A stretch of DNA of 32,532 nt from an uncultured Gammaproteobacteria bacterium (lineage in GTDB: Bacteria > Pseudomonadota > Gammaproteobacteria > GCA-002705445 > GCA-002716945): contig CAJWPJ010000010.1 of the NCBI GenBank assembly GCA_913045115.1, forward strand, positions 1 to 32,532, in the 5' to 3' direction. The position numbers and the translations under genes are program-made. This document shows positions 15,483-31,214 of this stretch, in pieces. The notes under the pieces are model-generated. The model was not told the origin of the DNA. It ran no database searches and saw nothing but the letters and a program-made list of their open reading frames with translations. The first letter of the stretch is position 1. Each line of letters opens with the position of its first letter.

Positions 15483-16078
15483 TTAAATACTATCCATGTT
15501 GTCGCTATGTATTTCGACCCTTTCTTTACTGTAACACCTCGATGTTCATGCGTCCAAAATGGAGGGAAGATTACAAGCTTTCCTTTCTCTGGTTTTATTT
15601 TGACCTTTTGATGCAAGAACTCTGTCTCACCACCTGGGCCGTCTACATTATTTAGATACCATATCGCGACAAGTTGTCTATCACTCATTTGATGACTACC
15701 TGTATCAATATGCCAATGAAAGTACTCACCGGCATCAGTTCTTTGTATTGCATACCCAATATCTTTAAATTTACCGTTGAAAAAATCATACTCCTTTTTC
15801 ATTTTTGATAGAGCTTTCGATAGGCTGACAAAAAATATCTCGTCTATATCTTTCCATGAATCTTTACCGCTGATCACCATATCGGTAGATTTTTTTACAT
15901 TATCATTCTCTTCAAAATTTGGACCGACCCTTCCTCTATAATGATCGTCTTTTGAGTCTTCAAACCTTTTAACTATTTCGTCACATTTTTCGGGTGTTAT
16001 TTCATTATCAAATTCAAATATAAAGCTACCCGGACTTTTTTCAATGAGCCTTTTATCTATCTTTATTTCATTAGTCAT
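15479..16078 (-). CDS. 2OG-Fe(II) oxygenase (prolyl 4-hydroxylase-like)
   Basis: YFHWHIDTGSH (HxD), LVAIWYLNNVDGPGGETEFLHQ, LVIFPPFWTHEHRGVTVKKGSKYIATTW. Confidence 0.85.
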   Translation of the reverse strand: MTNEIKIDKRLIEKSPGSFIFEFDNEITPEKCDEIVKRFEDSKDDHYRGRVGPNFEENDNVKKSTDMVISGKDSWKDIDEIFFVSLSKALSKMKKEYDFFNGKFKDIGYAIQRTDAGEYFHWHIDTGSHQMSDRQLVAIWYLNNVDGPGGETEFLHQKVKIKPEKGKLVIFPPFWTHEHRGVTVKKGSKYIATTWIVFK

Positions 16079-16118
16079 AATATTTATATTACACAGTAAA
16101 TGTTATCATCTGAATATT

Positions 16119-16682
16119 ATGGCAATAAGAATTAAAAGCAAGTGGTCAAAAACCGTAAAAAGAAAGAAGACCCCAGAGGACTATGGTAGCGCCCTGTCCT
16201 TTATCTCATGGAGGTTATCTTTAGATAAGGCAAAAACGCTCCATGGTGAGGATTTTGAATACGAAAATGATCATCAAAGAGTTTCTATAATTGTAGAGTA
16301 CATGTCATTTCAAGTTCATCTAGTTGATAGATTATTATTTGAAGACAATATGGATAGTGAATTTAGAGCTCAAGTTATGAACTCGCTAGGGAAACAATCA
16401 GCAAGAATAATGCAAGAGAATTGTGAGGATCTTTTTGGACCAGGGGATTACAAGAAAGGCTATATCAATACACTTAATCTTAGATCAACAGAGTACTCTG
16501 AATTTGAATTTTCAAGAAAGGGGAGTAATTACTCTTTATACAGACACCTGTCAAAAAAATGCCAAGATGTTATGGGTTACAGTCAGACAAACAAATGGGT
16601 TATGGATCAGATTATAGATATTGATTCAGTAGAGATATTAAAAAAGATTCTTGAAGTTTACGACTCAGTAACGAAGTCTTGA
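16119..16682 (+). CDS. Hypothetical protein
   Basis: 188-codon ORF; ATG at 16119 (MAIRIKSKWSKTVKRKKTPEDYG) preferred over 16044, which overlaps the divergent gene. Confidence 0.7.
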   Translation: MAIRIKSKWSKTVKRKKTPEDYGSALSFISWRLSLDKAKTLHGEDFEYENDHQRVSIIVEYMSFQVHLVDRLLFEDNMDSEFRAQVMNSLGKQSARIMQENCEDLFGPGDYKKGYINTLNLRSTEYSEFEFSRKGSNYSLYRHLSKKCQDVMGYSQTNKWVMDQIIDIDSVEILKKILEVYDSVTKS

Positions 16683-16683
16683 G

Positions 16684-16878
16684 TTAGTCTTTAAATTTTT
16701 CTACGTTATCGAAATTATTATTTTTACCGTCTTCATATCCTGCTTGGTATGCATCGGTTACTCTTTGCTCTTCCACTTCTGGTGCGTCTTGATAGCCTTC
16801 TTGCCAGCCTAGTATGTATTGATCGCTAGCATTCATTTTTTCAAGTTCAGTTACTTTATCAAAATATTCTTGATTCAT
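16684..16878 (-). CDS. Small hypothetical acidic protein with GxxxGY/GYxxG repeats
   Basis: 64 aa, internal similarity YILGWQEGYQ / AYQAGYEDGK; 1-nt stop/start overlap with upstream gene. Confidence 0.65.
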   Translation of the reverse strand: MNQEYFDKVTELEKMNASDQYILGWQEGYQDAPEVEEQRVTDAYQAGYEDGKNNNFDNVEKFKD

Positions 16879-17111
16879 TATGTTCTTATTGACCCCTTTA
16901 TTTGGTGCGCTATATCAACTAGTCTGTTAGCAAGTTTTTCATGCTCTTCTTTATACTCTTTAACGATGCCCTTAGGATTATGGTGTATGTCTTTCTCAGT
17001 GACTCCTTTCTCTCTTTCGAGTTCCATAAATTTTTTTTGAATCTCTAGAATCCTCGCTATTATCTCTTTTCTTTCTTTTTGTAGCTCTTTCTCATTAACT
17101 GCATCAGTCAT
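16878..17111 (-). CDS. Small hypothetical coiled-coil-like protein
   Basis: 77 aa, Glu/Lys-rich heptad-like; TAATG coupling with upstream gene. Confidence 0.65.
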   Translation of the reverse strand: MTDAVNEKELQKERKEIIARILEIQKKFMELEREKGVTEKDIHHNPKGIVKEYKEEHEKLANRLVDIAHQIKGSIRT

Positions 17112-17455
17112 TAATATCCACCTTTTCTCCTACTCTCAGGTAGACCGCCAATTCTCCCTGCTTGTTTACTAGGATTGCCAGGGAACAGATCAAACAGCGC
17201 TTTTGAATCAATTTTTTCTCCCCATAACTTTCCTATATCTTTAATCATGTTCCTAGTATTAGGCTGATTTTCTTTATTATTGATAAATTCATCTCGTAAA
17301 TAGTTGATCACATCCCAGTGTTTTTGAGTAAGCTCAATACCTTCTTGCTGTGCGATAACTGCAGCCACGTCCTCTGTCCAGTCCTCGATATTTGTCAAAA
17401 AGCCAGTATCAGTGGTGGCTATCTCTTGTCCATTAACCTCAACTTTCATATTCAT
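17111..17455 (-). CDS. DsrC/TusE family protein lacking both C-terminal cysteines (RspA-like)
   Basis: EVNGQEIATTDTGFLTNIEDWTEDVAAVIAQQEGIELTQKHWDVINYLRDEF aligns with DsrC at 22831; C-terminus KQAGRIGGLPESRRKGGY has no Cys. Confidence 0.85.
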   Translation of the reverse strand: MNMKVEVNGQEIATTDTGFLTNIEDWTEDVAAVIAQQEGIELTQKHWDVINYLRDEFINNKENQPNTRNMIKDIGKLWGEKIDSKALFDLFPGNPSKQAGRIGGLPESRRKGGY

Positions 17456-17494
17456 ATCCTCATTTCTGAATTAATCAATATTGGAAAATTCTAA

Positions 17495-17510
17495 TATACT
17501 AAAAAGTATA
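17495..17510 (-). promoter_or_regulatory. Putative promoter -10 / palindrome TATACT-AAAA-AGTATA
   Basis: Inverted repeat in the 80-bp gap before the DsrC-like gene; on the - strand TTTACC-N16-TATACT resembles sigma70. Confidence 0.3.
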
Positions 17511-17535: not shown

Positions 17536-18213
17536 CTAGTCTTCTCTAAAATTATTCACAGCGTCAATAGACTTATGTGGAAGAAAAATACCACAACCAT
17601 ACAGTTTTTTGTCACCCACACCCTCCTCTTGGAGCTTAAGTGACTCCTCTTTAGATAGGTCAGCAATCATAAGTGATCTTGTATACAATGTTTTTTCACC
17701 AAAATTGATTACCATAGATCTTCCGCAAAGTGCTTTTCTAATATTAATATGTAAGTCGCTTAATTCATTCTGGATTTTATTCAGAAAATCATCTTCTGAT
17801 AATTTGTGATCACTCATCACAAATCTACAGAATAAGTCTTTGACAACCAAGAAACTTTTGACTTTTGACCTACCAATTTTCAATGTATTTCCAAAAAGAG
17901 TTATCTCTTTACCTTCTATATTTTTAATATCATCGAGTTGGTTTCTATTAATTCGCATTATAAGCTTTGCTCGTTTCGATAGAGGTATATTCTCACTATC
18001 AGGGCGCACCCATCCGTTGCCTGACATAGGTCCATGCAATGTTTGAATTGCATTTCTTTTATCTTTTTTAATTTCAGGGACAAGATTAAGAATTTCAGAA
18101 GAAAGTTCGTATGCATGGTCATATGGGAGTTCTTTACAATCAACAGAAAATGATAATTCCGCCATATCCGAATTATCAGCTATTGGTTTTTTTTCTTCAT
18201 TTTCTTGCCACAT
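17536..18213 (-). CDS. Cas6/Cmx6-like (type I-MYXAN-like) protein
   Basis: LSFSVDCKELPYDHAYELSSEILNLVPEI, LHGPMSGNGWVRP, LSKRAKLIMRI, SLMIADLSKEESLKLQEEGVGDKKLYGCGIFLPHKSI match the recalled Cmx6 pattern. Confidence 0.7.
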   Translation of the reverse strand: MWQENEEKKPIADNSDMAELSFSVDCKELPYDHAYELSSEILNLVPEIKKDKRNAIQTLHGPMSGNGWVRPDSENIPLSKRAKLIMRINRNQLDDIKNIEGKEITLFGNTLKIGRSKVKSFLVVKDLFCRFVMSDHKLSEDDFLNKIQNELSDLHINIRKALCGRSMVINFGEKTLYTRSLMIADLSKEESLKLQEEGVGDKKLYGCGIFLPHKSIDAVNNFRED

Positions 18214-18215
18214 AT

Positions 18216-18410
18216 TTAGTCTCTAATATATCCACTGAAGACACTTTCTACACGATCTTGCCAATTCTCTGGAGTATCTGGAAAGGGCGGCTTTAAATCA
18301 AACCTAATGAACATCTCTCCTTCTATAGCCTTTTGCTTGACGATGTCTAAAAACTCATCAAATGTCTCAACATCTTTATGTTCTATTAGTAGCGTACTTA
18401 GATAGAGCAT
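18216..18410 (-). CDS. Small hypothetical protein
   Basis: 64 aa (FLDIVKQKAIEGEMFIRFDLKPPFPDTPENWQDRVESVFSG) tightly coupled between TauD-like and Cas6-like genes. Confidence 0.65.
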   Translation of the reverse strand: MLYLSTLLIEHKDVETFDEFLDIVKQKAIEGEMFIRFDLKPPFPDTPENWQDRVESVFSGYIRD

Positions 18411-19237
18411 TATAACCTCTCGTAAGATCTAATCCTTAAAAGTTTTCTTTTTACCTTATCATCTTTAAATGCATTTCTTCCATGTAAAATGTTGTTAGTT
18501 ATAATTCCCTCATTTTTCTGTAGCTTGTATGTAAGGGAATACTTGCCACAATCGTTTTCTATAATTCTTTTTAGATTTGCAATGGCAGCGCTAGCCTTTG
18601 GACTCGTGTCAATATTATCTTTTCTCATTGAGAATCTCATATGTAATTTTTTATACTGATTTTCGAACGAGAAAATATATGTTGAGATTTTTGCTCTAGA
18701 TGTGTCTTTGCTCTCCGGTATAGTTAAGGCGTCTGCTGCCAATAAATTATTTATGTCGTCGTGTCTCATGACGTATTCTCTCAAAGCTAGCTCATGATCA
18801 AGTAAATAATTTTCGCCTCCTTGGGTTGCTGGATTAACACAATGAAGGAGCCATGAAAAAATTGGTTTTCTATCGTAGTAACCATCAGTGTGCCAATTAA
18901 GAGGCTTATCTGTGTAAGGTATATAATTTATTTTGTTGTTTTCTACAGGAGTGATTGTACTAATTTCATTTGATTCTAAATTGTTGCAATCATATGTTCT
19001 CATTCCAACTAATTCAGCAAATTTTAAAAGTGTAATATTAGACTCCAAGGGAGCACTAGATGAGTATATGCAGCTATTATATCTATTGATAGTCTCTTTG
19101 ATCTTGGCGATCTCAGAGGTTTTTACATTATTTATGTCATGGATATTTACTGATATTCCATCAATATTCTGAGGGATATTCCTCTCTTTTTCCTCTGCCC
19201 ATCTGAGGAATTCTGCTGATTTTGCTGTAAATATCAT
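18410..19237 (-). CDS. TauD/TfdA family Fe(II)/2OG-dependent dioxygenase
   Basis: NWHTDGYYDRKPIFSWLLHCVNPATQGGENYLLDHELAL (HxD), distal NNILHGRNAF and RKLLRIRSYE. Confidence 0.85.
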   Translation of the reverse strand: MIFTAKSAEFLRWAEEKERNIPQNIDGISVNIHDINNVKTSEIAKIKETINRYNSCIYSSSAPLESNITLLKFAELVGMRTYDCNNLESNEISTITPVENNKINYIPYTDKPLNWHTDGYYDRKPIFSWLLHCVNPATQGGENYLLDHELALREYVMRHDDINNLLAADALTIPESKDTSRAKISTYIFSFENQYKKLHMRFSMRKDNIDTSPKASAAIANLKRIIENDCGKYSLTYKLQKNEGIITNNILHGRNAFKDDKVKRKLLRIRSYERL

Positions 19238-19314
19238 ACTTTTATATATTGTTAATTTTTAGGTCATTTTAATACTTGTTTTTTATGATAATTCCATGCA
19301 ATATTAACTTCACG

Positions 19315-19342
19315 TGGACATATTAGAAATCAATGATAAAAT
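19315..19342 (+). promoter_or_regulatory. Putative dsrA promoter TGGACA-N16-TAAAAT
   Basis: Sigma70-like hexamers at 19315-19320 and 19337-19342, 40 bp upstream of the dsrA GTG; CACGTG palindrome overlaps the -35. Confidence 0.4.
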
Positions 19343-19381
19343 AATATACATTGGAAACCAAAGGATTTTAGGGGAATATTT

Positions 19382-20638
19382 GTGAAAAAACATGATACAC
19401 CAATGATTGATGAGCTAGAGAATGGCCCATGGCCTAGTTTCATTAGTGGTATAAAAAGACTAAGAGATACACATCCAGAAAAAAGAATTAACGAGATGAC
19501 AAATGACCTCCTTGGTCAGCTCGAGCACTCATACGAAACACGTAAAGGGTACTGGAAAGGTGGGACAGTAAGTGTCTATGGCTATGGAGGAGGAATTATT
19601 CCAAGATTCTCCGAAGTGGGCAATGCTTTCCCTGCATCAAAAGAATTTCATACTTTGAGAGTACAACCACCTGCTGGCAACTTCTACTCAACAAGTATAT
19701 TAAGACAACTCGCAGACAGCTGGGAGAAACATGGCTCTGGTTTAGTAACATTTCATGGACAAACAGGCAACATTATGTTCATTGGTTCAACTACCGAAAA
19801 CACACAACACTTCTTTGATGAAGTTAATGAGTATGGATTTGACCTTGGTGGTGCGGGACCATGTGTAAGAACAGCAATGTCATGTGTTGGAGCTGGACGT
19901 TGTGAGATGTCTAATGTCAATGAGCATAAAGCTCACAGACTCCTAGTTAATAACTTTACTGACGATGTACATAGACCTGCTTTACCATATAAGTTCAAAT
20001 TTAAAGTGTCAGGTTGCCCAAATGATTGCATGAACTCAATCGAGCGTGCTGACATGTCTGTAATAGGTACATGGAGAGATGACATTAAAGTTGATCAAGA
20101 AGAATTTAAGAAGTACGTCGAGATGAAAGGTCGTAAATACGTCATAGATAACATAGTTACAAGATGCCCAACCAATGCAATCTCTCTAAATGATGATGAT
20201 TCAATTCAAATCGATAATCAAAACTGCGTCAAATGCATGCACTGTCTGAATGTTGTTCCAAAAGCACTTCAATGTGGAGATGATAAGGGTGTAACAATTC
20301 TAATCGGCGGTAAAAGGACTCTAAAAATAGGTGATTTGATGGGAACAGTCATTGTTCCATTCATGAAGTTAGAAAATGAAGAGGATTGGGAGAGACTAGT
20401 CGAGATTGCAGAGGAGACAATCGATTTTTGGGCTGACAATGCTCTTGAACATGAGAGATGCGGCGAGATGATTGAAAGAATTGGGCTTGTGAATTTCCTA
20501 GAAGGAGTTGGCTTTGATGTTGATCCAAACATGGTTGCCAACCCAAGAGAAAGTTCTTATGTAAGAACAGATGATTGGGATGATGAAGCCGTCAAATGGT
20601 ACGAAAAAGCCGATCAACGTGAAAAGGATTCAGCATAA
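19382..20638 (+). CDS. dsrA: Reverse-type dissimilatory sulfite reductase alpha subunit
   Basis: GTG start with AGGGGA RBS; FKVSGCPNDCMNSIERADMSVIG, CVRTAMSCVGAGRCEMSN, ferredoxin insert CVKCMHCLNVVPKAL. Confidence 0.96.
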   Translation: MKKHDTPMIDELENGPWPSFISGIKRLRDTHPEKRINEMTNDLLGQLEHSYETRKGYWKGGTVSVYGYGGGIIPRFSEVGNAFPASKEFHTLRVQPPAGNFYSTSILRQLADSWEKHGSGLVTFHGQTGNIMFIGSTTENTQHFFDEVNEYGFDLGGAGPCVRTAMSCVGAGRCEMSNVNEHKAHRLLVNNFTDDVHRPALPYKFKFKVSGCPNDCMNSIERADMSVIGTWRDDIKVDQEEFKKYVEMKGRKYVIDNIVTRCPTNAISLNDDDSIQIDNQNCVKCMHCLNVVPKALQCGDDKGVTILIGGKRTLKIGDLMGTVIVPFMKLENEEDWERLVEIAEETIDFWADNALEHERCGEMIERIGLVNFLEGVGFDVDPNMVANPRESSYVRTDDWDDEAVKWYEKADQREKDSA

Positions 20639-21723
20639 TGAGTGAGAATGCAAAAAAAGAGATGAGATCACCTATAGAAACTGGTTGTCCTGATGGCTTC
20701 CAGTACATGCATCCAACTATGCGAAAAAACTTTGGGCAATGGAAGTATCATGAACACCCAAGACCTGGCGTTTTAGTACATGTATCTCACAGTGGCGAAG
20801 AAATCTGGACTGTAAGAGCTGGAACACAGCGTATATTAGATGTTTTCACTCTAAGAACTCTTTGTGACATCGGTGATGAATTTGCTGATGGTTATGTAAG
20901 ATTCACCATAAGAAGTAATATTGAGTATATGGTGAGTGATAAAGATAAAGTACAACCACTTATTGATGCTCTAGAGAAAGAAGGGTTCATAGTCGGTGGA
21001 ACAAAAAACTCAGTAGCTATGATCTCTCATACTCAAGGCTGGTTACATTGTGATATTCCTGGAACTGATGCATCAGGCGTTGTTAAAGCAATGATGGATG
21101 AACTGATTGATGAGTTCAGAAACAATGATATGCCAAACCGTGTTCATTTAACTACTTCTTGCTGTCAAATTAACTGTGGTGGCCAAGGAGATATTGCTAT
21201 AAACATTCAACACACGAAGCCACCAAAAATTAATCATGATTTGGTATCTAACGTATGTGAGAGACCGTCAGTTGTAGCACGTTGTCCAGTTGCTGCTATT
21301 AGACCAGCAATGGTTAACGGTAAACCATCACTAGAGGTTGATGAAAAAAAATGTATATGTTGTGGTGCATGTTTCCCACCATGTCCGCCTATGCAAATTA
21401 ATGATCCAGAGCATAGTAAGCTTGCAATATGGGTCGGCGGTAATCATTCTAACGCAAGAAGCAAACCATCTTTTCAAAAGCTTGTAGCTGCAGGCATACC
21501 TAATAATCCACCAAGATGGCCAGAAGCAACAGCAATCGTCAAAAGAATTCTATCTGCGTACAAAGAAGATGCGCGCGATTGGGAAAGAATCAACGACTGG
21601 ATTGAGAGAATAGGTTGGCCAAGGTTTTTTGAACTTACAGAACTACCATTTACAAAATATCATATTGATAACTGGCGTGGTGGTAGAAAAACTCTTAACT
21701 CATCAGCATACGTTAGATTCTAA
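20638..21723 (+). CDS. dsrB: Dissimilatory sulfite reductase beta subunit
   Basis: LTTSCCQINCGGQGDIAINIQHTKPP, CICCGACFPPCPPMQINDPEHSKLAIWVGG. Confidence 0.96.
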   Translation: MSENAKKEMRSPIETGCPDGFQYMHPTMRKNFGQWKYHEHPRPGVLVHVSHSGEEIWTVRAGTQRILDVFTLRTLCDIGDEFADGYVRFTIRSNIEYMVSDKDKVQPLIDALEKEGFIVGGTKNSVAMISHTQGWLHCDIPGTDASGVVKAMMDELIDEFRNNDMPNRVHLTTSCCQINCGGQGDIAINIQHTKPPKINHDLVSNVCERPSVVARCPVAAIRPAMVNGKPSLEVDEKKCICCGACFPPCPPMQINDPEHSKLAIWVGGNHSNARSKPSFQKLVAAGIPNNPPRWPEATAIVKRILSAYKEDARDWERINDWIERIGWPRFFELTELPFTKYHIDNWRGGRKTLNSSAYVRF

Positions 21724-21735
21724 TCGTCAGTTACT

Positions 21736-22128
21736 ATGAAGTTTGGAGTTTTAATTAACGAAGGCCCTTACCAACATCAAGCATCTGATACAGCCTATAA
21801 ATTTATTGAAGCTGCAATTGAAGAAGGACATGAAATATTTAGGGTTTTCTTCTATCACGATGGTGTCAATAACGGTACACGGTTAGCAACTCCTCCCCAA
21901 GATGACAGGCATATTCCTAATCGATGGACTGAGCTAGCTGAAAAACACGAAATTGATCTAGTTCTGTGTGTGGCAGCTGCTCAAAGAAGAGGAATGGTTG
22001 ATGAGGATGAGATGAAAAGAAATAGCAAAGATGCTAATAATATTGCAGGTAAGTTCAGAATATCAGGTTTAGGACAACTGATTGAAGCAGGCATTCAAGC
22101 AGATAGAATGATTACATTTGGTGATTGA
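21736..22128 (+). CDS. dsrE: DsrE sulfur-transfer protein
   Basis: MKFGVLINEGPYQHQASDTAYKFIEAAIEEGHEIFRVFFYHDGV; conserved Cys in DLVLCVAAAQRRG. Confidence 0.95.
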   Translation: MKFGVLINEGPYQHQASDTAYKFIEAAIEEGHEIFRVFFYHDGVNNGTRLATPPQDDRHIPNRWTELAEKHEIDLVLCVAAAQRRGMVDEDEMKRNSKDANNIAGKFRISGLGQLIEAGIQADRMITFGD

Positions 22129-22129
22129 T

Positions 22130-22516
22130 ATGGAAGATCAAGAGTTAGAATCAGGAATTGTAAAAAAATTTATCTACGTAAATAGAAAAGCTCCTCATGG
22201 AACGATATATGCTCATGAGGCTCTTGAAGTTGTACTGATTGCAGCTGCATTTGAACAAGATGTGTCTTTAGCTTTCATTGACGATGGAGTGTATCAACTA
22301 AAAAAAGGTCAGAATACTGACGGCATAGCAACGAAAAATTTTACTAAAACATTTGGAGCTCTAGAAATGTATGACGTTGAAAAACTTTATGTAGAAAAAG
22401 AATCCTTAGAAGAGCGCGGTCTTAGTGAAGATGATTTGTCTGTTGATGTTGAAGTTTTAGCATCATCGGAATTAAAAAAACTATTTAATGAATCTGAGGT
22501 ATTTTTCAACTTCTAA
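22130..22516 (+). CDS. dsrF: DsrF sulfur-transfer protein
   Basis: KKFIYVNRKAPHGTIYAHEALEVVLIAAAFEQDVSLAFIDDGVYQLKKGQ; ATG at 22130 avoids the dsrE overlap of the ORF-track start. Confidence 0.94.
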   Translation: MEDQELESGIVKKFIYVNRKAPHGTIYAHEALEVVLIAAAFEQDVSLAFIDDGVYQLKKGQNTDGIATKNFTKTFGALEMYDVEKLYVEKESLEERGLSEDDLSVDVEVLASSELKKLFNESEVFFNF

Positions 22517-22818
22517 TGTTACATACAATAAATAAATCGCCTTTTGAAAAGGATAGCCTTAAAACTTGCTTGAGATATGCAGAGAAGGGCTCATCAGTAT
22601 TGTTTATAGAAGATGCTGTTTATGCATGCACAAAAGGAACTAACTTTGAAAAGCAGATTACTGAGAATCAAGAAAACATTAGTTTTTATGTACTAGGACC
22701 AGATCTAGAAGCAAGAGGGCTTGATAATTCGAATTTAACAAATAATATAGAAATTATAGATTATAAAGGTTTCGTTAAACTTGTAGCTGAAAACGAAAAA
22801 ACTCAAAATTGGCTTTAA
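22516..22818 (+). CDS. dsrH: DsrH sulfur-transfer protein
   Basis: MLHTINKSPFEKDSLKTCLRYAEKGSSVLFIEDAVYACTKGT. Confidence 0.94.
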   Translation: MLHTINKSPFEKDSLKTCLRYAEKGSSVLFIEDAVYACTKGTNFEKQITENQENISFYVLGPDLEARGLDNSNLTNNIEIIDYKGFVKLVAENEKTQNWL

Positions 22819-22830
22819 CAGGAGAATAAG

Positions 22831-23163
22831 ATGGCAATTGAAGTAAATGGCAAATCTTTTGAAACAGACGAAGAGGGATATTTAGCAAACCTCAACGACT
22901 GGGAAAAAGACGTAGCAACAGTAATGGCAAAAGAAGATGATATTGAACTCTCTGATGATCACTGGGAAATTATCAATTTCCTTCGTGAGTACTATGAGGA
23001 ATATCAAATTGCACCAGCTGTAAGAGTTCTTACAAAAGCTGTGGGCAAGAAGCTTGGCAAAGATAAAGGAAACAGTAAGTATCTATATGAGCTCTTTCCA
23101 TATGGCCCAGGCAAACAAGCATGTAAATTTGCAGGCCTTCCAAAACCTACTGGTTGCGTATAA
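22831..23163 (+). CDS. dsrC: Canonical DsrC with both C-terminal cysteines
   Basis: C-terminus LFPYGPGKQACKFAGLPKPTGCV. Confidence 0.97.
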   Translation: MAIEVNGKSFETDEEGYLANLNDWEKDVATVMAKEDDIELSDDHWEIINFLREYYEEYQIAPAVRVLTKAVGKKLGKDKGNSKYLYELFPYGPGKQACKFAGLPKPTGCV

Positions 23164-23188
23164 GTAATCACAAGGTCAGGGAAAGGCA

Positions 23189-23926
23189 ATGTCATTTGTA
23201 ACAATATTGTATGCAGCGATGTTTTACTTCGCTGCAGCAATTTTATTTATTGGTTTAGCATATAGAGTCTATGAATACGCTAAGATACCAGCCCCATTGA
23301 AAATACCAACACCACCTGCACCAATGACTCAAAAAGGTGTAGCAATCAGAATTTTTAGAGAAGTTGTTTTTTTTGAAAGTCTTTTTTCAGCTACAAAATG
23401 GACATGGCTTTTTAGTTGGATATTTCACCTAGCTCTACTACTTGCTGCTTTCAGGCACCTAAAATATTTTACAGACCCAGTTTGGTTTTGGGTTTCATTC
23501 GAACTTGTTCAGGTTGCTGGTCACTATGCAGCATATCTTATGCTTGCAGGCTTACTTGGATTACTTGCAAGACGTGTATTTGTAGATAGAGTAAGATACA
23601 TATCATCACCTTCAGATTACTTAATACTTGTCTTAATCATAGCAATAGCTGGTTCCGGTTTAATGATGAAATGGTTTCCTTCAGATATTCTTGCGATTAA
23701 ATTGTTTTTCGTTGGGTTATTAACTTTCAATTTTTCAGAACTTCCATCTGATGTTGTATTATTAATTCATTTATCTCTAGTTATTGCATTAATGATAATT
23801 TTTCCATACAGTAAACTTTTACATGCACCTGGTTTATTCTTTAGTCCTACAAGAAATCAGGTTGACAATGCAAGGAGCAAAAGACATGTAGCGAATTGGG
23901 CTAAAAGAATGGAGTCGACAAAATAA
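23189..23926 (+). CDS. dsrM: DsrM, membrane cytochrome b-like subunit of DsrMKJOP
   Basis: Multiple TM helices, NarI-like; position in operon. Confidence 0.93.
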   Translation: MSFVTILYAAMFYFAAAILFIGLAYRVYEYAKIPAPLKIPTPPAPMTQKGVAIRIFREVVFFESLFSATKWTWLFSWIFHLALLLAAFRHLKYFTDPVWFWVSFELVQVAGHYAAYLMLAGLLGLLARRVFVDRVRYISSPSDYLILVLIIAIAGSGLMMKWFPSDILAIKLFFVGLLTFNFSELPSDVVLLIHLSLVIALMIIFPYSKLLHAPGLFFSPTRNQVDNARSKRHVANWAKRMESTK

Positions 23927-23927
23927 A

Positions 23928-25424
23928 ATGGCTAGCAAATTTGAAACACCTCAAGTAAGAAAGTTTCCAATAATTCCGAAACTAGAGAATAGTGCGACTT
24001 CACATCTATCTCCTTTCAAATCAAAAGAAGAATTTCAATCCAGCTTAGGCTACCCTGGAGAACTCGTTGAAAACTGGCAGGAAAAAGCCATTGACAAAAT
24101 GGGCGATCTTCTAGGAAAGTATCGTTCACTTCGTGTTTATCTTGATTCATGTATTCAATGCGGCGCTTGCACTGATAAGTGCCATTATTATCAAGGTACA
24201 AAAGATCCTAATAATATGCCAGTTGGTAGACAAAATTTAATGAGAAGTGTTTATCGCAGATACTTTACTTTGCCAGGAAAATATTTTCCTAAATTAGTTG
24301 GAGCTAAAGATTTAACAAAAGAAGTACTAGATGATTGGTATTCTTACTATCATCAATGCTCACAATGCAGAAGATGTGCTGTCTTTTGTCCCATCGGTAT
24401 TGATACAGCTGAAATATCTATGGCTGCTAGAGAAGTTATGGATTCTATCGGCGTTGGACAGAAATACTGCAATGAAATAATAGGTAAAGTTCATAAAATT
24501 GGTAACAATCTTGGATTACCAGAACCGGCTTTAGCAGACACACTAGAAGGCCTTGAAGAAGATGTCTTGGATGATACAGAAATCGATGTAAAGTTTCCAT
24601 TAGATGTAAAAGATTCAGAAGTACTCTTAGTAACACCGTCTGCTGATTTTTTTGCTGAACCTCATGTAGATGGTCTTATTGGATATGCAAAGGTCTTTCA
24701 TCAAGCAGGTATTAGCTGGACACTGAGTTCTCATGCCAGCGAGGCTGCCAATTTTGGAATGTTCATTGGAAGTTACGACAATATGAAAAAACTAGCAATG
24801 CGCATAAGAGAAGCAGCGTTAGAATTAAATGTAAAAAGAATCGTTTTTGGTGAATGCGGACATGCCTGGAGGGTTGCTTATAGTTTTTTGAATACTCTTG
24901 CAGGACCATTTGATTTCCTTGACCCAAGATATCCAGTCCCACAACATATTTGCGAAATTACAAATGGATTGATAGATCAAAACGTTTTGAATTTTGATAA
25001 GTCTGCTAACGATGATATGACTCTCACTTATCATGACTCATGTAACGTCGCAAGAGCATCGAGCATGGGAGGTATTATGGGGGGTCAATTTACAATTCCA
25101 AGGAAAATAATCCAAACAGTGGCCAATAATTTTTATGACATGGATGATGAAACCATCAAGGAAAAGACATATTGCTGCGGCGGCGGTGGAGGCTTGCTGA
25201 CAGATGATTTAATGGAATTGCGAGTTAAGGGGGCATTACCTAGAATGGAGGCCTTGAAGCATCTCATTGAAGAGAAAGGAGTCACGCATATGGCTGCTAT
25301 CTGTGCTATCTGTAAAAGCCAATTCAGCAAGGTTTTTCAGTATTATGACCTTGAATTAGACCAAATTGTTAGCCTTCATCAACTTGTCAGTAATGCATTA
25401 ATAATGAATAAAAAAGAGGTTTAG
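23928..25424 (+). CDS. dsrK: DsrK, HdrD-like Fe-S subunit
   Basis: CIQCGACTDKCHYY, CSQCRRCAVFCPIGID, CCGGGGGLL. Confidence 0.96.
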   Translation: MASKFETPQVRKFPIIPKLENSATSHLSPFKSKEEFQSSLGYPGELVENWQEKAIDKMGDLLGKYRSLRVYLDSCIQCGACTDKCHYYQGTKDPNNMPVGRQNLMRSVYRRYFTLPGKYFPKLVGAKDLTKEVLDDWYSYYHQCSQCRRCAVFCPIGIDTAEISMAAREVMDSIGVGQKYCNEIIGKVHKIGNNLGLPEPALADTLEGLEEDVLDDTEIDVKFPLDVKDSEVLLVTPSADFFAEPHVDGLIGYAKVFHQAGISWTLSSHASEAANFGMFIGSYDNMKKLAMRIREAALELNVKRIVFGECGHAWRVAYSFLNTLAGPFDFLDPRYPVPQHICEITNGLIDQNVLNFDKSANDDMTLTYHDSCNVARASSMGGIMGGQFTIPRKIIQTVANNFYDMDDETIKEKTYCCGGGGGLLTDDLMELRVKGALPRMEALKHLIEEKGVTHMAAICAICKSQFSKVFQYYDLELDQIVSLHQLVSNALIMNKKEV

Positions 25425-25501
25425 CCCAAAAATTCTTATGCTATACTGCTAAAATTGGTGTATTAGAAAAGTATAATAAACTTATATAAAATGTTGAAAT
25501 A

Positions 25502-27475
25502 ATGACTAAGATAGAAAAGACAATAAACTTGATGAAAGAGGAAAATACCTACAGAAGGTTTAACGACGGTGATCATAAATATGATGACTTTTCTGAGGCG
25601 ATATTTGAACAAGACCACTCTCACAAGTGCCCTACATATGTTCACAAAACACCTCCTTGCCAAGGAAGTTGTCCATCTGGTGAAGACATACGTGGATGGT
25701 TACAAATCGTCAGAGGAATAGAGCAGCCGCCTGAAGATATGTCCATGTCAGAATACGCATTTAGAAGATCCACATCAGCTAATCCGTTTCCATCTCAAAT
25801 GGGAAGAGTCTGCCCAGCACCTTGTCAAAGTGGGTGTAATAGAAACGAGGTTGACGACTATGTTGGGATAAACGCTGTTGAACAGTTTATAGGTGATAAA
25901 GCTATCAAAGAAGGTTATACATTTGATCCTGCGCCTAAATTACAAAAAGAGAGAGTAGCAATTATTGGTGGCGGTCCTGCGGGGTTATCGGCAGCATATC
26001 AACTGAGAAAAATGGGATATGCCTCAACTATATTTGAAGAGAGAAAAGAGCTTGGTGGGATGATGCGCTATGGTATTCCAGGTTACAGAACACCCAGAGA
26101 TCTTCTAGACAAAGAAATTGAGAGAATTATTAACCTTGGTGATATCGAACTAGTTCTTGGAAAAAGAGTTGGTAGAGATATAGAGTTAGCAGAAGTCGAG
26201 AAATCACACGATGCGGTTTTATGGACCATAGGATGTTGGAATGGTAAAGCAATTCCTGTAGATGGTGGAGATGCGACTAACTGCATTACTGGCGTTGATT
26301 TCTTAGAAGCCTTTTGTGATGGAAGACTCAAGGTTGGTTCAAAAAAAGTGATATGCGTTGGTGGGGGTGATACATCCATAGACGTCGTATCTGTAGCTAG
26401 AAGACTTGGACACATATCTAAAATGAATGACCAAGATACTCCTGAGAATATTGTTCACGGCTACGTTGCTCAAGATGTATCTGAATCAGCTGCTAAAGAG
26501 GGTGCTGAAGTAACATTAACATCATTATTTAAAAAAGAAGAAATGACAGCAGCAGAGCAAGAGGTCAATGATGCTATGCATGAGGGTGTAAACATTCTAA
26601 ATGGAGTTATGCCTGTCAAGATAGAAAAAAATGATGAAAATAGAGCTGTAGCAATGATAGTTGCAGATTGTACTTTTGATGAGAAAAATATTCCTGTACC
26701 AGTTGAGGGGACAGAAAGAAGAATAGAGGCTGATCTAATTGTAGCTGCTATTGGACAAGCACCAGACATTGAGGGCATAGACGAATTAGGAAACGAAAGA
26801 GGATTTTTTGAGGTAGATGATTATTATAGACATAAAACAAAAGAAGGACATTTTGTTGCTGGTGATATTATAAGACCACATCTTCTAACAACTGCCATCG
26901 GGCAAGGGTCTATCGTTTCACAAACAATTAAAAGTTACTTTGAAAATAAAGATTTTAAAAGACGCCCTAAAGTTGACGTTCACCACTTCAACCTTCTTGA
27001 TAAATTAAGAGAGACAGACTTAGAGCCAGAACCGTATACAGCTCCAATAGATCCTGATTTATATCGTGGTTCTGATAAAAGCAAAAACGTGCTTCATAAC
27101 TATGAAGATAGATCCGCTCAAGAAATTATCCCATCCACTGAATTATTTCTTGGTCATTTTAAGCATGAGGATAGACTCAAGAGAGGAGAGGATGTTCCAT
27201 CTGGAGACGATGTAATAGACAACTATCAAGATCGAATTATAGGACTAACAGAAGAACAAGCTATTGCTGAAGCATCAAGATGCATGAGCTGTGGTATGTG
27301 CTTTGAATGTGACAATTGTGTTATCTACTGCCCTCAAGATGCTGTATTTCGAGTTAAAAAAGATGAGGCTACGCTTGGTAGATATGTAGATACAGATTAC
27401 AACAAATGCATTGGATGCCATATTTGTGCTGATGTATGCCCAACTGGATATATAAAAATGGGGCTCGGCGAGTAG
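25502..27475 (+). CDS. dsrL: DsrL, NAD(P)H:acceptor oxidoreductase with ferredoxin domain
   Basis: IIGGGPAGLSAAYQLRKMGY, CVGGGDTSIDVVSVARRLG; C-terminal CMSCGMCFECDNCVIYCPQDAV and CIGCHICADVCPTG. Confidence 0.95.
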   Translation: MTKIEKTINLMKEENTYRRFNDGDHKYDDFSEAIFEQDHSHKCPTYVHKTPPCQGSCPSGEDIRGWLQIVRGIEQPPEDMSMSEYAFRRSTSANPFPSQMGRVCPAPCQSGCNRNEVDDYVGINAVEQFIGDKAIKEGYTFDPAPKLQKERVAIIGGGPAGLSAAYQLRKMGYASTIFEERKELGGMMRYGIPGYRTPRDLLDKEIERIINLGDIELVLGKRVGRDIELAEVEKSHDAVLWTIGCWNGKAIPVDGGDATNCITGVDFLEAFCDGRLKVGSKKVICVGGGDTSIDVVSVARRLGHISKMNDQDTPENIVHGYVAQDVSESAAKEGAEVTLTSLFKKEEMTAAEQEVNDAMHEGVNILNGVMPVKIEKNDENRAVAMIVADCTFDEKNIPVPVEGTERRIEADLIVAAIGQAPDIEGIDELGNERGFFEVDDYYRHKTKEGHFVAGDIIRPHLLTTAIGQGSIVSQTIKSYFENKDFKRRPKVDVHHFNLLDKLRETDLEPEPYTAPIDPDLYRGSDKSKNVLHNYEDRSAQEIIPSTELFLGHFKHEDRLKRGEDVPSGDDVIDNYQDRIIGLTEEQAIAEASRCMSCGMCFECDNCVIYCPQDAVFRVKKDEATLGRYVDTDYNKCIGCHICADVCPTGYIKMGLGE

Positions 27476-27503
27476 TTAATCGCTTTTTACTCAGGGGAAA
27501 ATA

Positions 27504-27956
27504 TTGAGACATCTTAAAATATCATTACTGATATTTGTCTGCATGGTTACTATGCATTCAGTCTATGCCCATGACGGCAACCCACACGTATCCCCAGGTA
27601 AATCTAAGGCAGATTCCCAAAAAGCATGCGTAGAACCTACAGATGTTATGAGAAAAGAACACTATTTGTTTCTTCTACATCAAAGAGACGAGACAGTAAT
27701 AGACGGCATTAGGACAAAAAATCATAGTTTAGCAAATTGTGTTGATTGTCATGTTTCATATGACGAGAAAGGTAAAGCTATTCCTATTAATTCTGAGGGT
27801 CAATTCTGTCAAGAGTGCCATGTAAAAACAGCAACTAATATAACTTGTTTCTCGTGTCATGCTGCAGAACCAAGATTCCCCAACCATGCAAAGAATATCA
27901 GTAATGGTGATATTGATGAGATTAGTGCTATTGCAAAGAGGATAGAAGATGAATAA
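27504..27956 (+). CDS. dsrJ: DsrJ, triheme c-type cytochrome
   Basis: Signal peptide; three CxxCH motifs (CVDCH, CQECH, CFSCH); TTG start with AGGGGA RBS. Confidence 0.93.
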   Translation: MRHLKISLLIFVCMVTMHSVYAHDGNPHVSPGKSKADSQKACVEPTDVMRKEHYLFLLHQRDETVIDGIRTKNHSLANCVDCHVSYDEKGKAIPINSEGQFCQECHVKTATNITCFSCHAAEPRFPNHAKNISNGDIDEISAIAKRIEDE

Positions 27957-28677
27957 TAGACGAAATTTCCTTGTTAAATCAGCAAGCGCATTAACTATGA
28001 CATTTATTGTTCCATCTCTCTTGTCTTCTAATGTACAAGCAAAAAAACCACTTGATCAAAAAGTTTCTAATAAGCAAAGTTGGGGAATGCATATTGACGT
28101 TGATAAATGTGTTGATGGATGTACAGCATGTGTTGATGCTTGTAATGAGGAAAATGGATTGACTGGCTTCGGTAGACCTGAGACAGACTCTCAGTGGATT
28201 AGAAAAGTTAAAATTAAAGATAAAACCACTGACAAAATAACAACCATGCCAATGATGTGCCAACATTGTGAGAACCCACCATGTTGTGATGTCTGTCCTA
28301 CAGGAGCTTCATTCAAAAGAGTAGATGGCATTGTGATGGTTAATCAGCATACATGTATTGGCTGTAGATATTGCATGATGGCATGTCCATTTAAAGCAAG
28401 ATCGTTTGTTCACGAAACATTAACAACTCAGAATACTAATGCTCCACGCGGAAAAGGATGTGTAGAAAGCTGCAATTTATGTGTTAATAAAATAGATCAT
28501 GGCTCAAAAACTACTGCATGTGAAGATGCTTGTATTAAATCTGGCCATAATGCGATTACATTTGGTGACTTAAAAGATAGTAACAGTAAAGTCAGATTAG
28601 CAATTGATTCAAATAGTCCAAGAAGACTAAGAAATGATTTAAATTTAAACCAAAAAGTTTTCTATTCAAATATATGA
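27949..28677 (+). CDS. dsrO: DsrO, periplasmic Fe-S protein with Tat-like signal
   Basis: NNRRNFLVKSASALT Tat-like; CVDGCTACVDACNEE, CQHCENPPCCDVCPTGAS, CIGCRYCMMACPF. Confidence 0.95.
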   Translation: MNNRRNFLVKSASALTMTFIVPSLLSSNVQAKKPLDQKVSNKQSWGMHIDVDKCVDGCTACVDACNEENGLTGFGRPETDSQWIRKVKIKDKTTDKITTMPMMCQHCENPPCCDVCPTGASFKRVDGIVMVNQHTCIGCRYCMMACPFKARSFVHETLTTQNTNAPRGKGCVESCNLCVNKIDHGSKTTACEDACIKSGHNAITFGDLKDSNSKVRLAIDSNSPRRLRNDLNLNQKVFYSNI

Positions 28678-29849
28678 GCGACTACACACTTAACAAATTA
28701 AAAACTCCTCGAATACTTTATTGGGGGATATTTCTTTTTCTAGGTTTTCTAATATTACTAGGCTTAGCCTCATCTGCATATATGGAACATGAAGGCCACT
28801 ATGTTACTGGCATGAATAATCAGATCGTTTGGGGCTTACCACATATTTTTGCAGTTACACTAATTGTGATAGCGTCGGGAGTTTTAAATATTGCTTCAAT
28901 GTCATCAGCATTCAATAAAAAACTATATAAACCTCTTGCTCCGCTATCAGCATTATTTGCTATAGCTTTTTTAATAGCCGGACTTATTATTTTAGTCCTT
29001 GATTTAGGTAGACCGGATCGTTTAATTGTTGCGATGACCACATATAACTTTAAATCAATTTTTGCGTGGAATATTTTTCTATACTCTGGTTTTTTTGTCA
29101 TATTGGCAATATATATTTGGTCAATGTTGGACTTCAATGTCAGTAGGTTCTCTTCTTTAATTGGAAAAATAGCATTTGGTTGGAGAATAATACTAACTAC
29201 CGGTACAGGATCAATATTTGGATTTTTAGTAGCTAGAGAAGCTTATTCAACTGCAGTTCTTGCACCACTTTTTATTGTGATGTCTTTATTATATGGAACG
29301 GCAGTATTTTATTTGTTATTAAGAGTTATCTCTAAGCTACAATCTATTGATATCCCACCTGAAATCACCACAAGCATTAGAAGGTTAATGATAATCTTCC
29401 TTTTAGCCAATATATATTTTTTGATCTTGTATCATATAACCAATCTATACATATCCAAACAAATAGCTGTTGAGTCATTCATACTATTAAATGGCGGGGG
29501 TTATACAACTATGTTTTGGCTAGGACAAGTTGGTTTGGGACTAGTAGTACCACTTTCATATGAAATGACTAATGGTGAGAATAGAGGATTTGCTTTGACG
29601 ATAACTTCTATTATGGTCTTAGTTGGGGGGTTCTTTGCGGTTGCTGTGATCATTATTGGCGGTCAGGCTTTCCCATTAAATATTTTTCCGGATCATATTA
29701 TTTTAGAGTCTTCTTTTTATGACAGCGTAATTCATTCTTACACACCTTCAATATTTGAGTTCGGTCTGGGAATAGGCGGGACATCACTTGCTCTAATAAT
29801 AATTCTTATTCTTATTACAAATTTAAAATTTATCCCTTCGAAGAAGTAG
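28674..29849 (+). CDS. dsrP: DsrP, NrfD-like integral membrane subunit
   Basis: Polytopic; HIFAVTLIVIASGVLNIASMSS, LDLGRPDRLIVAMTTYNFKSIFAWN. Confidence 0.95.
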   Translation: MSDYTLNKLKTPRILYWGIFLFLGFLILLGLASSAYMEHEGHYVTGMNNQIVWGLPHIFAVTLIVIASGVLNIASMSSAFNKKLYKPLAPLSALFAIAFLIAGLIILVLDLGRPDRLIVAMTTYNFKSIFAWNIFLYSGFFVILAIYIWSMLDFNVSRFSSLIGKIAFGWRIILTTGTGSIFGFLVAREAYSTAVLAPLFIVMSLLYGTAVFYLLLRVISKLQSIDIPPEITTSIRRLMIIFLLANIYFLILYHITNLYISKQIAVESFILLNGGGYTTMFWLGQVGLGLVVPLSYEMTNGENRGFALTITSIMVLVGGFFAVAVIIIGGQAFPLNIFPDHIILESSFYDSVIHSYTPSIFEFGLGIGGTSLALIIILILITNLKFIPSKK

Positions 29850-29861
29850 AGTTTAATCATT

Positions 29862-31214
29862 ATGGTTAACTCCTTACTCATATCATCTACCAAAAAGTCA
29901 TCAGGCAAAACAATTATCTCTATTGGTCTATCTGGATTAATTAATAAGATTGGTTACAATGTCCGAACTTTTAAAAAAGGACCAGATTTCATAGATCCGT
30001 CATGGTTATCTTTAGCCTCAAACAGAGACTGCTATAACCTAGATTTTAATACGATGAGTCAGGCTGAGATAACAAAGCTATTTTCAGAGAAAACTCATAA
30101 CATGGATTTTAGTCTCATAGAGGGAACTAAAGGTCTTTACGATGGTATATCTACTGATGGAAGCGATAGCAACGCACAGTTAGCTAGTCTTCTAAAAACT
30201 GAGGTATTATTAGTTATAGACTGTGAAGGTATGACAAGGGGCATAGCTCCTTTATTAGAAGGGTATAAGTCGTTTGGGAAAGATCTTAGATTAAATAAAG
30301 TTCTATTAAATAATGTCTCAACATCAAGACATGAATCTAAATTGGTTGCTGCAGTATCACAATATACAGATTTTGATGTTTTGGGAGTTGTTCCAAAAAT
30401 AAGTAACTTCATATCTGAGAGGCATTTAGGACTAGTTCCAACATTTCAACACCCACGTAAAAAGAAGGTATTATCATCATTAATATCAATTATAAAAGAC
30501 AACACAGACTATAAAAAATTGTTACCAGCTAAACCTAAAAAATCACAGAGTGATAATAAACCTATTTTAAAAAATAAACACAATTCTCTTCTAATAGGAG
30601 TTGCTTCAGATGCAGCATTTGGTTTTTATTATCCAGATGATTTAGAGGAAATCGAGAGACATGGTTGTAAAATAAAAAAAATTGATTTGATACGAGACTC
30701 TAAACTACCATCACTAGATGGCTTATTTATAGGTGGAGGTTTCCCAGAGGTACAAGCACATAAACTTGAAAAAAATACCTCAATGAAAAAGTCAATTCGT
30801 AATGCAATAAATCAAAACCTTCCAGTGTATGCTGAATGTGGCGGACTTATGTATCTAGCTAAAAGTATTAAGTTTAAGAATTCTCGTACTAAAATGTGTA
30901 ATGTTTTTGATATTGATATTGAAATGAATGAAAAGCCTATCGGAAGAGGTTATACAGTCTTAGAAGCTAATAATCACCCATGGGCAGTGAATAAAAAAAA
31001 TATACATGCGCATGAGTTTCACTACTCATCTGTCATACATAACACCAAGAAATATAAATATGCATATAATATAAAACGAGGTTATGGTATCAATGGTAAA
31101 AAAGATGGCTTAATATATAAAAATACTATTGCGTCTTTTTCACATTTAAGGTCAACAAATAGATTCAGTTGGACCAAATATTTTATTAAATTTATTGAGG
31201 AACTAAATGGTTAA
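29862..31214 (+). CDS. dsrN: DsrN, cobyrinate a,c-diamide synthase-like (siroheme amidase)
   Basis: STKKSSGKTIISIGLSGLINKIGYNVRTFKKGPDFIDPSWLS; GLFIGGGFPEVQA; VYAECGGLMYLAKS. Confidence 0.92.
   Translation: MVNSLLISSTKKSSGKTIISIGLSGLINKIGYNVRTFKKGPDFIDPSWLSLASNRDCYNLDFNTMSQAEITKLFSEKTHNMDFSLIEGTKGLYDGISTDGSDSNAQLASLLKTEVLLVIDCEGMTRGIAPLLEGYKSFGKDLRLNKVLLNNVSTSRHESKLVAAVSQYTDFDVLGVVPKISNFISERHLGLVPTFQHPRKKKVLSSLISIIKDNTDYKKLLPAKPKKSQSDNKPILKNKHNSLLIGVASDAAFGFYYPDDLEEIERHGCKIKKIDLIRDSKLPSLDGLFIGGGFPEVQAHKLEKNTSMKKSIRNAINQNLPVYAECGGLMYLAKSIKFKNSRTKMCNVFDIDIEMNEKPIGRGYTVLEANNHPWAVNKKNIHAHEFHYSSVIHNTKKYKYAYNIKRGYGINGKKDGLIYKNTIASFSHLRSTNRFSWTKYFIKFIEELNG

Follow-up and report, generated by a model that had tools for sequence, protein, structure and literature searches.

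Organization of the Locus

The window, that is, the whole 32,532-nt stretch of gammaproteobacterial DNA that was analyzed, contains a gene cluster for the reverse Dsr (rDsr) pathway, which is the cytoplasmic sulfite-forming route of many sulfur oxidizers and whose regulation is poorly known. The dsrA gene (19382–20638, plus strand; TIGR02064, 612 bits) is followed by the rest of the cluster (dsrB, E, F, H, C, M, K, L, J, O and P and a following gene; 20638–31214, plus strand), which was read from the ORFs with a profile match for DsrK. The cluster is transcribed away from an operon on the minus strand, from which it is separated by a divergent intergenic region (19238–19381).

The first gene of the divergent operon encodes a TauD/TfdA-type Fe(II)/2-oxoglutarate oxygenase in which the HTD motif is kept (18410–19237; PF02668 profile and locus survey). 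It is followed by s64 (18216–18410), which encodes a conserved 64-aa protein and lies directly upstream of a Cas6-like gene (17536–18213). The s64 product has a conserved DxKPP..DTP..W...LE..F pattern and belongs to no known family; its structure was modeled confidently, and the fold search gave no PDB match better than E = 3.5. Downstream of the Cas6-like gene, profiles, locus survey and alignment identified a DsrC/TusE-family paralogue (17111–17455) in which both C-terminal redox cysteines are replaced. Its product ends with RIGGLPESRRKGGY, and in general these paralogues end with (R/K)I(A/G)GLPESRRKGGY, whereas DsrC has ACKYAGLPKPTGCV there. We take the paralogue to be of the RspA type, since RspA-type members likewise belong to the DsrC family and lack both redox cysteines; it differs from them in ending with RKGGY and in keeping its place beside the Cas6-like gene at most of the loci. 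The following minus-strand genes encode the conserved small protein s77 (77 aa; 16878–17111, locus survey) and an Alvin_2107 family globule sulfur oxidation protein (16684–16878; NF049856 profile match). A conserved protein with no assigned function (cluster c11; 16044–16682, plus strand) recurs in the module in the locus survey and was also found in three divergent genomes (L105–L107). Two further proteins were observed near the module: a TrpD2-like protein (PF02885; 14373–15482, minus strand), recurrent in 15 of 63 loci, and a DUF6866/Sfum_1244 family protein (L059:14293–15339 and relatives), found in 21 of the 63.

The order TauD-like protein, 64-aa protein, Cas6-like protein, cysteine-less DsrC paralogue and 67–77 aa protein recurred across the 63 loci, with dsrAB on the opposite side; in about 20 of them a 235-aa protein was encoded between the 64-aa and the Cas6-like genes. 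In three dsrA loci of a different class within the phylum (L202–L204), the TauD-like gene and s64 were shown to form a pair that either faces away from dsrA or immediately precedes it. No Cas6 gene was found in these three loci, where a different small protein follows the pair; in L203 and L204 the place of Cas6 is taken by an ORF that we read from its sequence as siroheme-synthase-like. The core of wider distribution is thus the TauD-s64 pair, to which the Cas6-like gene was added in Gammaproteobacteria, unless it was lost elsewhere.

Family and Fold of the Cas6-Like Protein

The original prediction had described a 225-aa ORF at 17536–18213, quoted several motifs from it and assigned it to the Cmx6/Cas6 family. 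An ORF check confirmed the length and the motifs and placed the ORF on the minus strand. The family assignment was borne out by TIGR02807 (cas6_cmx6, NCBIfam; 122.8 bits, E = 1.7e-35, cut-off 98.85) and by a full-length match to PF09559 (Cas6, Pfam; 183.6 bits, E = 5.2e-54, cut-off 26.7). The gene is present as a single copy in the home genome, and no relative of the protein was found in phage records. Its dN/dS of 0.06–0.08 against relatives (0.07–0.08 against those of about 90% identity) shows that it is a real gene under selection.

The nearest solved structure by sequence was 8fcj_B, the Cas6 of a type I-B CAST Cascade (E = 7.5e-7). An AlphaFold2 model built with a 57-sequence alignment (pLDDT 87, pTM 0.82) gave the same structure as rank 1 in Foldseek (E = 1.3e-15, TM 0.74/0.77), and ranks 1–47 were all Cas6-type proteins or complexes containing them. 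As modeled, the protein thus has the double ferredoxin-like fold of Cas6/RAMP proteins. 8fcj_B, its closest solved structure by both sequence and fold, serves an RNA-guided transposition complex and has Asn at the position aligned with His33 of the window protein.

Besides His33, the landmarks of the window protein are the NGW motif (residues 66–68), R81, R87 and the Gly-rich loop GVGDKKLYGCG (198–208). The C-terminal Gly-rich loop of Cas6 has been defined as GhGxxxxxGhG with K or R (PMC3936711); the pattern GhGx5GhG was found in 55 of 57 relatives, 49 of which have K or R inside the loop. The active-site-type His33, in the first helix region, is kept in 77 of 78 dsr-linked proteins and in six of seven CRISPR Cas6 proteins.

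Absence of CRISPR Context

It had also been claimed that the gene has no CRISPR context, and this was supported. No repeat-spacer array was found in the 32.5-kb window or in about 967 kb (small overlaps included) of the 1,045-kb home genome (49 contigs, 96.65% complete; contigs C34–C49 lay outside the scan). The same script detected the arrays of two cyanobacterial loci used as positive controls (L095 and L100); a marginal call in another locus (L163) was rejected as a low-complexity short-unit repeat. The window contains no cas3, cas8a1/cmx8, cas7, cas5, cas1 or cas2. In the home genome, profile searches showed no Cas1, no Cas3 above cut-off (helicase matches lay below it only) and no Cas5/Cmx5, the last search being weak on its own as it matched in no genome. 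In comparison, five of six true Cas6/Cmx6 relatives on cyanobacterial plasmids adjoin cas3 and other type I-MYXAN cas genes; the sixth (L098) has no cas genes within the stretch shown.

The family name and the Cas6 fold would suit a crRNA-processing Cas6 that is used in trans by a CRISPR system elsewhere in the genome, and some Cas1 is indeed present in 30 of 63 carriers of the Cas6-like gene. However, the other 33 carriers have no Cas1, nine of them being single-contig genomes, and the dsr-linked clade is separate from CRISPR Cas6 (see below). In the home genome the array and the effector genes would have to sit in the remaining 8% of the sequence. We therefore rejected this explanation, which is already contradicted by these results and is extremely improbable.

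Co-occurrence of the Cas6-Like Gene and dsrA

Profile counts of PF09559 and dsrA were compared in 369 gammaproteobacterial genomes, a survey that included the neighborhood of dsrAB. PF09559 was found in 118 genomes, nearly always as a single copy, and dsrA in 119; 111 genomes contained both, seven PF09559 alone and eight dsrA alone (odds ratio 482, Fisher p = 7e-75, not corrected for relatedness). The two genes were on one contig in 84 genomes, in 82 of which they were 0.7–4.5 kb apart, and all 82 nearby pairs were divergent, as in the window, where the Cas6-like gene is on the minus strand and dsrA starts at 19382 on the plus strand. At least 11 of the 15 exceptions had a contig end on the relevant side (G067, G093, G127, G186, G317, G318, G070, G079, G110, G123, and G207). 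The other four (G299, G211, G238, and G355) were genomes of 55–91% completeness; the dsrA of G355 is similar to the additional copy that its congener G147 carries away from the Cas6-like gene. Three more genomes from other families (G569, G596, and G620) also showed PF09559 and dsrA adjacent and divergent. In addition, the distance matrices of the Cas6-like proteins and DsrA were correlated (r = 0.62, 0 of 2000 permutations as high). A real, class-wide association of the Cas6-like gene with dsr is supported, as opposed to a chance neighborhood.

Within the family to which the window belongs, the five genomes without the Cas6-like gene were shown also to lack dsrA, and dsrA was found in 14 of 16 other genomes that were re-searched, the remaining two being 72–78% complete. 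This bears on the idea that the Cas6-like gene is functionally unrelated to dsr and simply rides along in a conserved sulfur island. Passive linkage of this kind might be read from genomes in which the two genes are on different contigs or far apart (for example, 40 kb in G109 and 517 kb in G325), but neither gene is missing from these genomes, and members of the window's family that lack one also lack the other. The link thus survives physical separation, and we regard passive linkage as very improbable.

PF09559 was absent from 48 dsrA-bearing genomes of other classes of the same phylum (Pseudomonadota). Among the genomes sampled, the link is thus specific to Gammaproteobacteria, and rDsr chemistry itself does not require the protein. 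The presence of the Cas6-like gene in essentially every sampled gammaproteobacterial genome with dsrA would make it a missing component of the system that has been hidden under a CRISPR name.

A dsr-Linked Subfamily Distinct from CRISPR Cas6

A tree of 41 sequences divided the proteins into a dsr-linked and a CRISPR Cas6 clade (support 100/99; the bootstrap was not fully settled), with the window protein outside the CRISPR Cas6 clade. Compared to the Cas6/Cmx6 proteins of type I-MYXAN/I-B CRISPR-Cas systems (TIGR02807; cyanobacterial plasmids L095–L100), the window protein showed the same fold and homology over its whole length, and both groups have a DH motif with His33, R87, R130 and a basic residue (K/R203) in the Gly-rich loop. 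In contrast to them, it occurs without cas genes or array. Only the dsr-linked proteins have an N-terminal MxWQE (W2), a 10–12 residue insertion with GNGWxRP (SGNGW in the window protein), R81, K160, R179 and a C-terminal PHK. Basic residues conserved in CRISPR Cas6 are lost at alignment columns 135, 149, 164 and 202, and a basic loop is missing; others are gained at columns 80, 81, 119, 159, 160, 179 and 214. The median pI of the dsr-linked proteins is 6.0 (6.25 for the window protein) versus 9.3–9.6 in six CRISPR Cas6/Cmx6 proteins.

Profile scores also differed between the two groups. On TIGR02807, which names both as type I-MYXAN CRISPR proteins, dsr-linked members scored 105–157 bits and five CRISPR members 161–255 bits, the window protein scoring below all five. 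Its best PADLOC-DB model was the Cas6 model PDLC01346 (237 bits), on which a true CRISPR Cas6 scored 197 bits, compared to 301 bits on PDLC02102. The PADLOC defense library thus seems to hold the dsr-linked subfamily already, in a model that carries the label crRNA maturation. Annotation pipelines will therefore tend to call CRISPR Cas6 in Gammaproteobacteria with rDsr, and TIGR02807, PF09559 and PADLOC Cas6 calls in sulfur oxidizers can be CRISPR false positives.

The proteins almost certainly constitute a CRISPR-independent, dsr-linked Cas6 subfamily. This subfamily is clearly tied to dsr in the genomes and adds a novel branch to an established family. It shows a Cas6 that has become a fixed housekeeping gene outside CRISPR. 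No text that connects Cas6 with dsr, no description of the subfamily and no biochemical data on dsr-linked Cas6-like proteins were found in the open-access papers searched; the subscription literature may differ. The original prediction had offered two readings, namely recruitment of an RNA-binding or RNA-processing protein to sulfur-oxidation gene expression, or a family misnamed as CRISPR-associated. The misnaming holds for the dsr-linked subfamily and the association with dsr is real, while binding or processing of dsr transcripts is the part that we still infer.

Possible Function of the Cas6-Like Protein

The kept active-site-type His and the Gly-rich loop favor an RNA-binding endoribonuclease, the exchanged basic residues favor a new substrate, and the divergent, co-inherited place beside dsrA favors control of rDsr. 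From these features we predict that the protein probably binds or cuts RNA. Alternatively, the Cas6 fold could serve without RNA work: the protein would then be a scaffold for DsrAB or for the products of the divergent operon (the oxygenase, the DsrC-like protein and s64), or would assist in their assembly or regulation, with the His and the Gly-rich loop kept for folding or as a protein or ligand site. Such a role would agree with the acidic pI and with the disappearance of several basic residues that CRISPR Cas6 conserves. The constant neighbors are proteins, including an oxygenase and a DsrC paralogue, and the new invariant features (W2, the SGNGW.RP insertion and the C-terminal PHK) resemble a binding site that CRISPR Cas6 does not have. 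However, if the fold alone mattered, one would not expect the His (77/78) and the basic Gly-rich loop to be nearly invariant among members that have diverged so deeply, and we consider a role of this kind unlikely.

That dsr transcripts are the target is predicted with somewhat less than even confidence. In A. vinosum, the dsr genes are transcribed as a single unit, in which dsrC has an additional promoter (PMC3368242), and on pyrite dsrAB is down about 22-fold while dsrC is nearly unchanged (PMC11267869). The unequal response of genes within one unit makes segment-wise control of the transcript plausible. Where the spacer separating dsrC from dsrM is 35 nt or longer, it contains a strong hairpin in 41 of 48 loci (L043–L123); other spacers seldom have one. 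In 35 loci the hairpin was stronger than all 20 shuffles. Its sequence is variable and its stem is typically 8–16 bp. It may possibly act as a 3′ stabilizer, a partial terminator or a processing site. Cas6 enzymes cut at the 3′ base of a hairpin and then remain bound, which makes this hairpin an attractive candidate target. However, it is absent from streamlined families, including that of the window (equivalent position 23164–23188), which nevertheless retain the Cas6-like protein in the window's case; the hairpin cannot therefore be the general answer and was rejected as a universal substrate. Two other candidates were also rejected: a dsrA-leader hairpin, as none is conserved in the window's family, and hairpins in the Cas6-RspA and RspA-s77 spacers, which barely exceed shuffled sequence (3/71 and 4/28, respectively). 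No conserved hairpin was thus found in the dsrA leader or the operon spacers of the window's lineage, and an Rfam search of the window gave no match.

This lack of a hairpin in cis would fit an RNA target elsewhere, such as tRNA or an unlinked small RNA, by which the DsrC/TusE-type sulfur relay would be tied to the modification or the decay of RNA. Paralogy with the relay for tRNA 2-thiouridine has been described for TusE/DsrC and DsrEFH/TusBCD (PMC3397948), and the gene next to the Cas6-like gene encodes a DsrC paralogue. A role in tRNA would not, however, predict strict dependence on dsrA, and the gene is absent from nearly all sampled dsr-negative Gammaproteobacteria; we find such a target rather improbable.

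The protein was probably repurposed as an accessory of the sulfur-oxidation pathway, either a helper or a regulator at the RNA level. The best explanation as a whole, a domesticated Cas6-type RNA-binding endoribonuclease that controls dsr expression, has in our judgment an even chance of being correct. According to this model, a Cas6-fold protein left CRISPR service and became fixed in the accessory operon divergent to the rDsr genes of Gammaproteobacteria. It would still recognize a specific RNA element and either cleave beside it or stay bound, and this action would tune the rDsr genes or its own operon post-transcriptionally, with the cysteine-less DsrC paralogue working alongside as a sensor or effector. 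More tentatively, there may have been a single domestication of a CRISPR processing nuclease in the ancestor of gammaproteobacterial sulfur oxidizers, the protein now being a sequence-specific endoribonuclease or RNA chaperone over reverse Dsr with the paralogue as its sulfur-status input. The acidic pI, the lost or changed basic residues and the lineage without a substrate hairpin speak against an RNA role on dsr, and the 48 dsrA-bearing genomes of other Pseudomonadota classes, which manage without the protein, count against the best explanation. The reading with a single domestication, if true, would mean that an exapted Cas protein regulates sulfur energy metabolism at the RNA level.

Conserved DNA Motifs

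A near-palindrome (AGTATATTAGAATTTTCCAATATT/AGTATATTAGAATTTTCCAATATA; 17477–17500, minus strand) was detected by its conservation in the spacer before the RspA-like gene. AGTATATTAGAATTTTCCAATATA is nearly invariant at this place in the window's family (equivalents in L032–L037 and L125–L140), and the near-palindrome is a candidate promoter or operator; TATTAGAA was also found before dsrA (19321) and dsrL (25461). In many loci a near-palindrome of the form TATCCC-N3/4-GGGATATA was observed upstream of the TauD-like, s64, s77, Alvin_2107-family and trpD2-like genes (e.g., L053:9159, L056:7340, and L059:8232). From its sequence it looks like the operator of a regulator of an rDsr regulon. The pattern CC[CTA]N3GGGATAT[AG] occurred 31 times versus 1–5 expected, and 27 of these occurrences were within 380 bp upstream of module genes.
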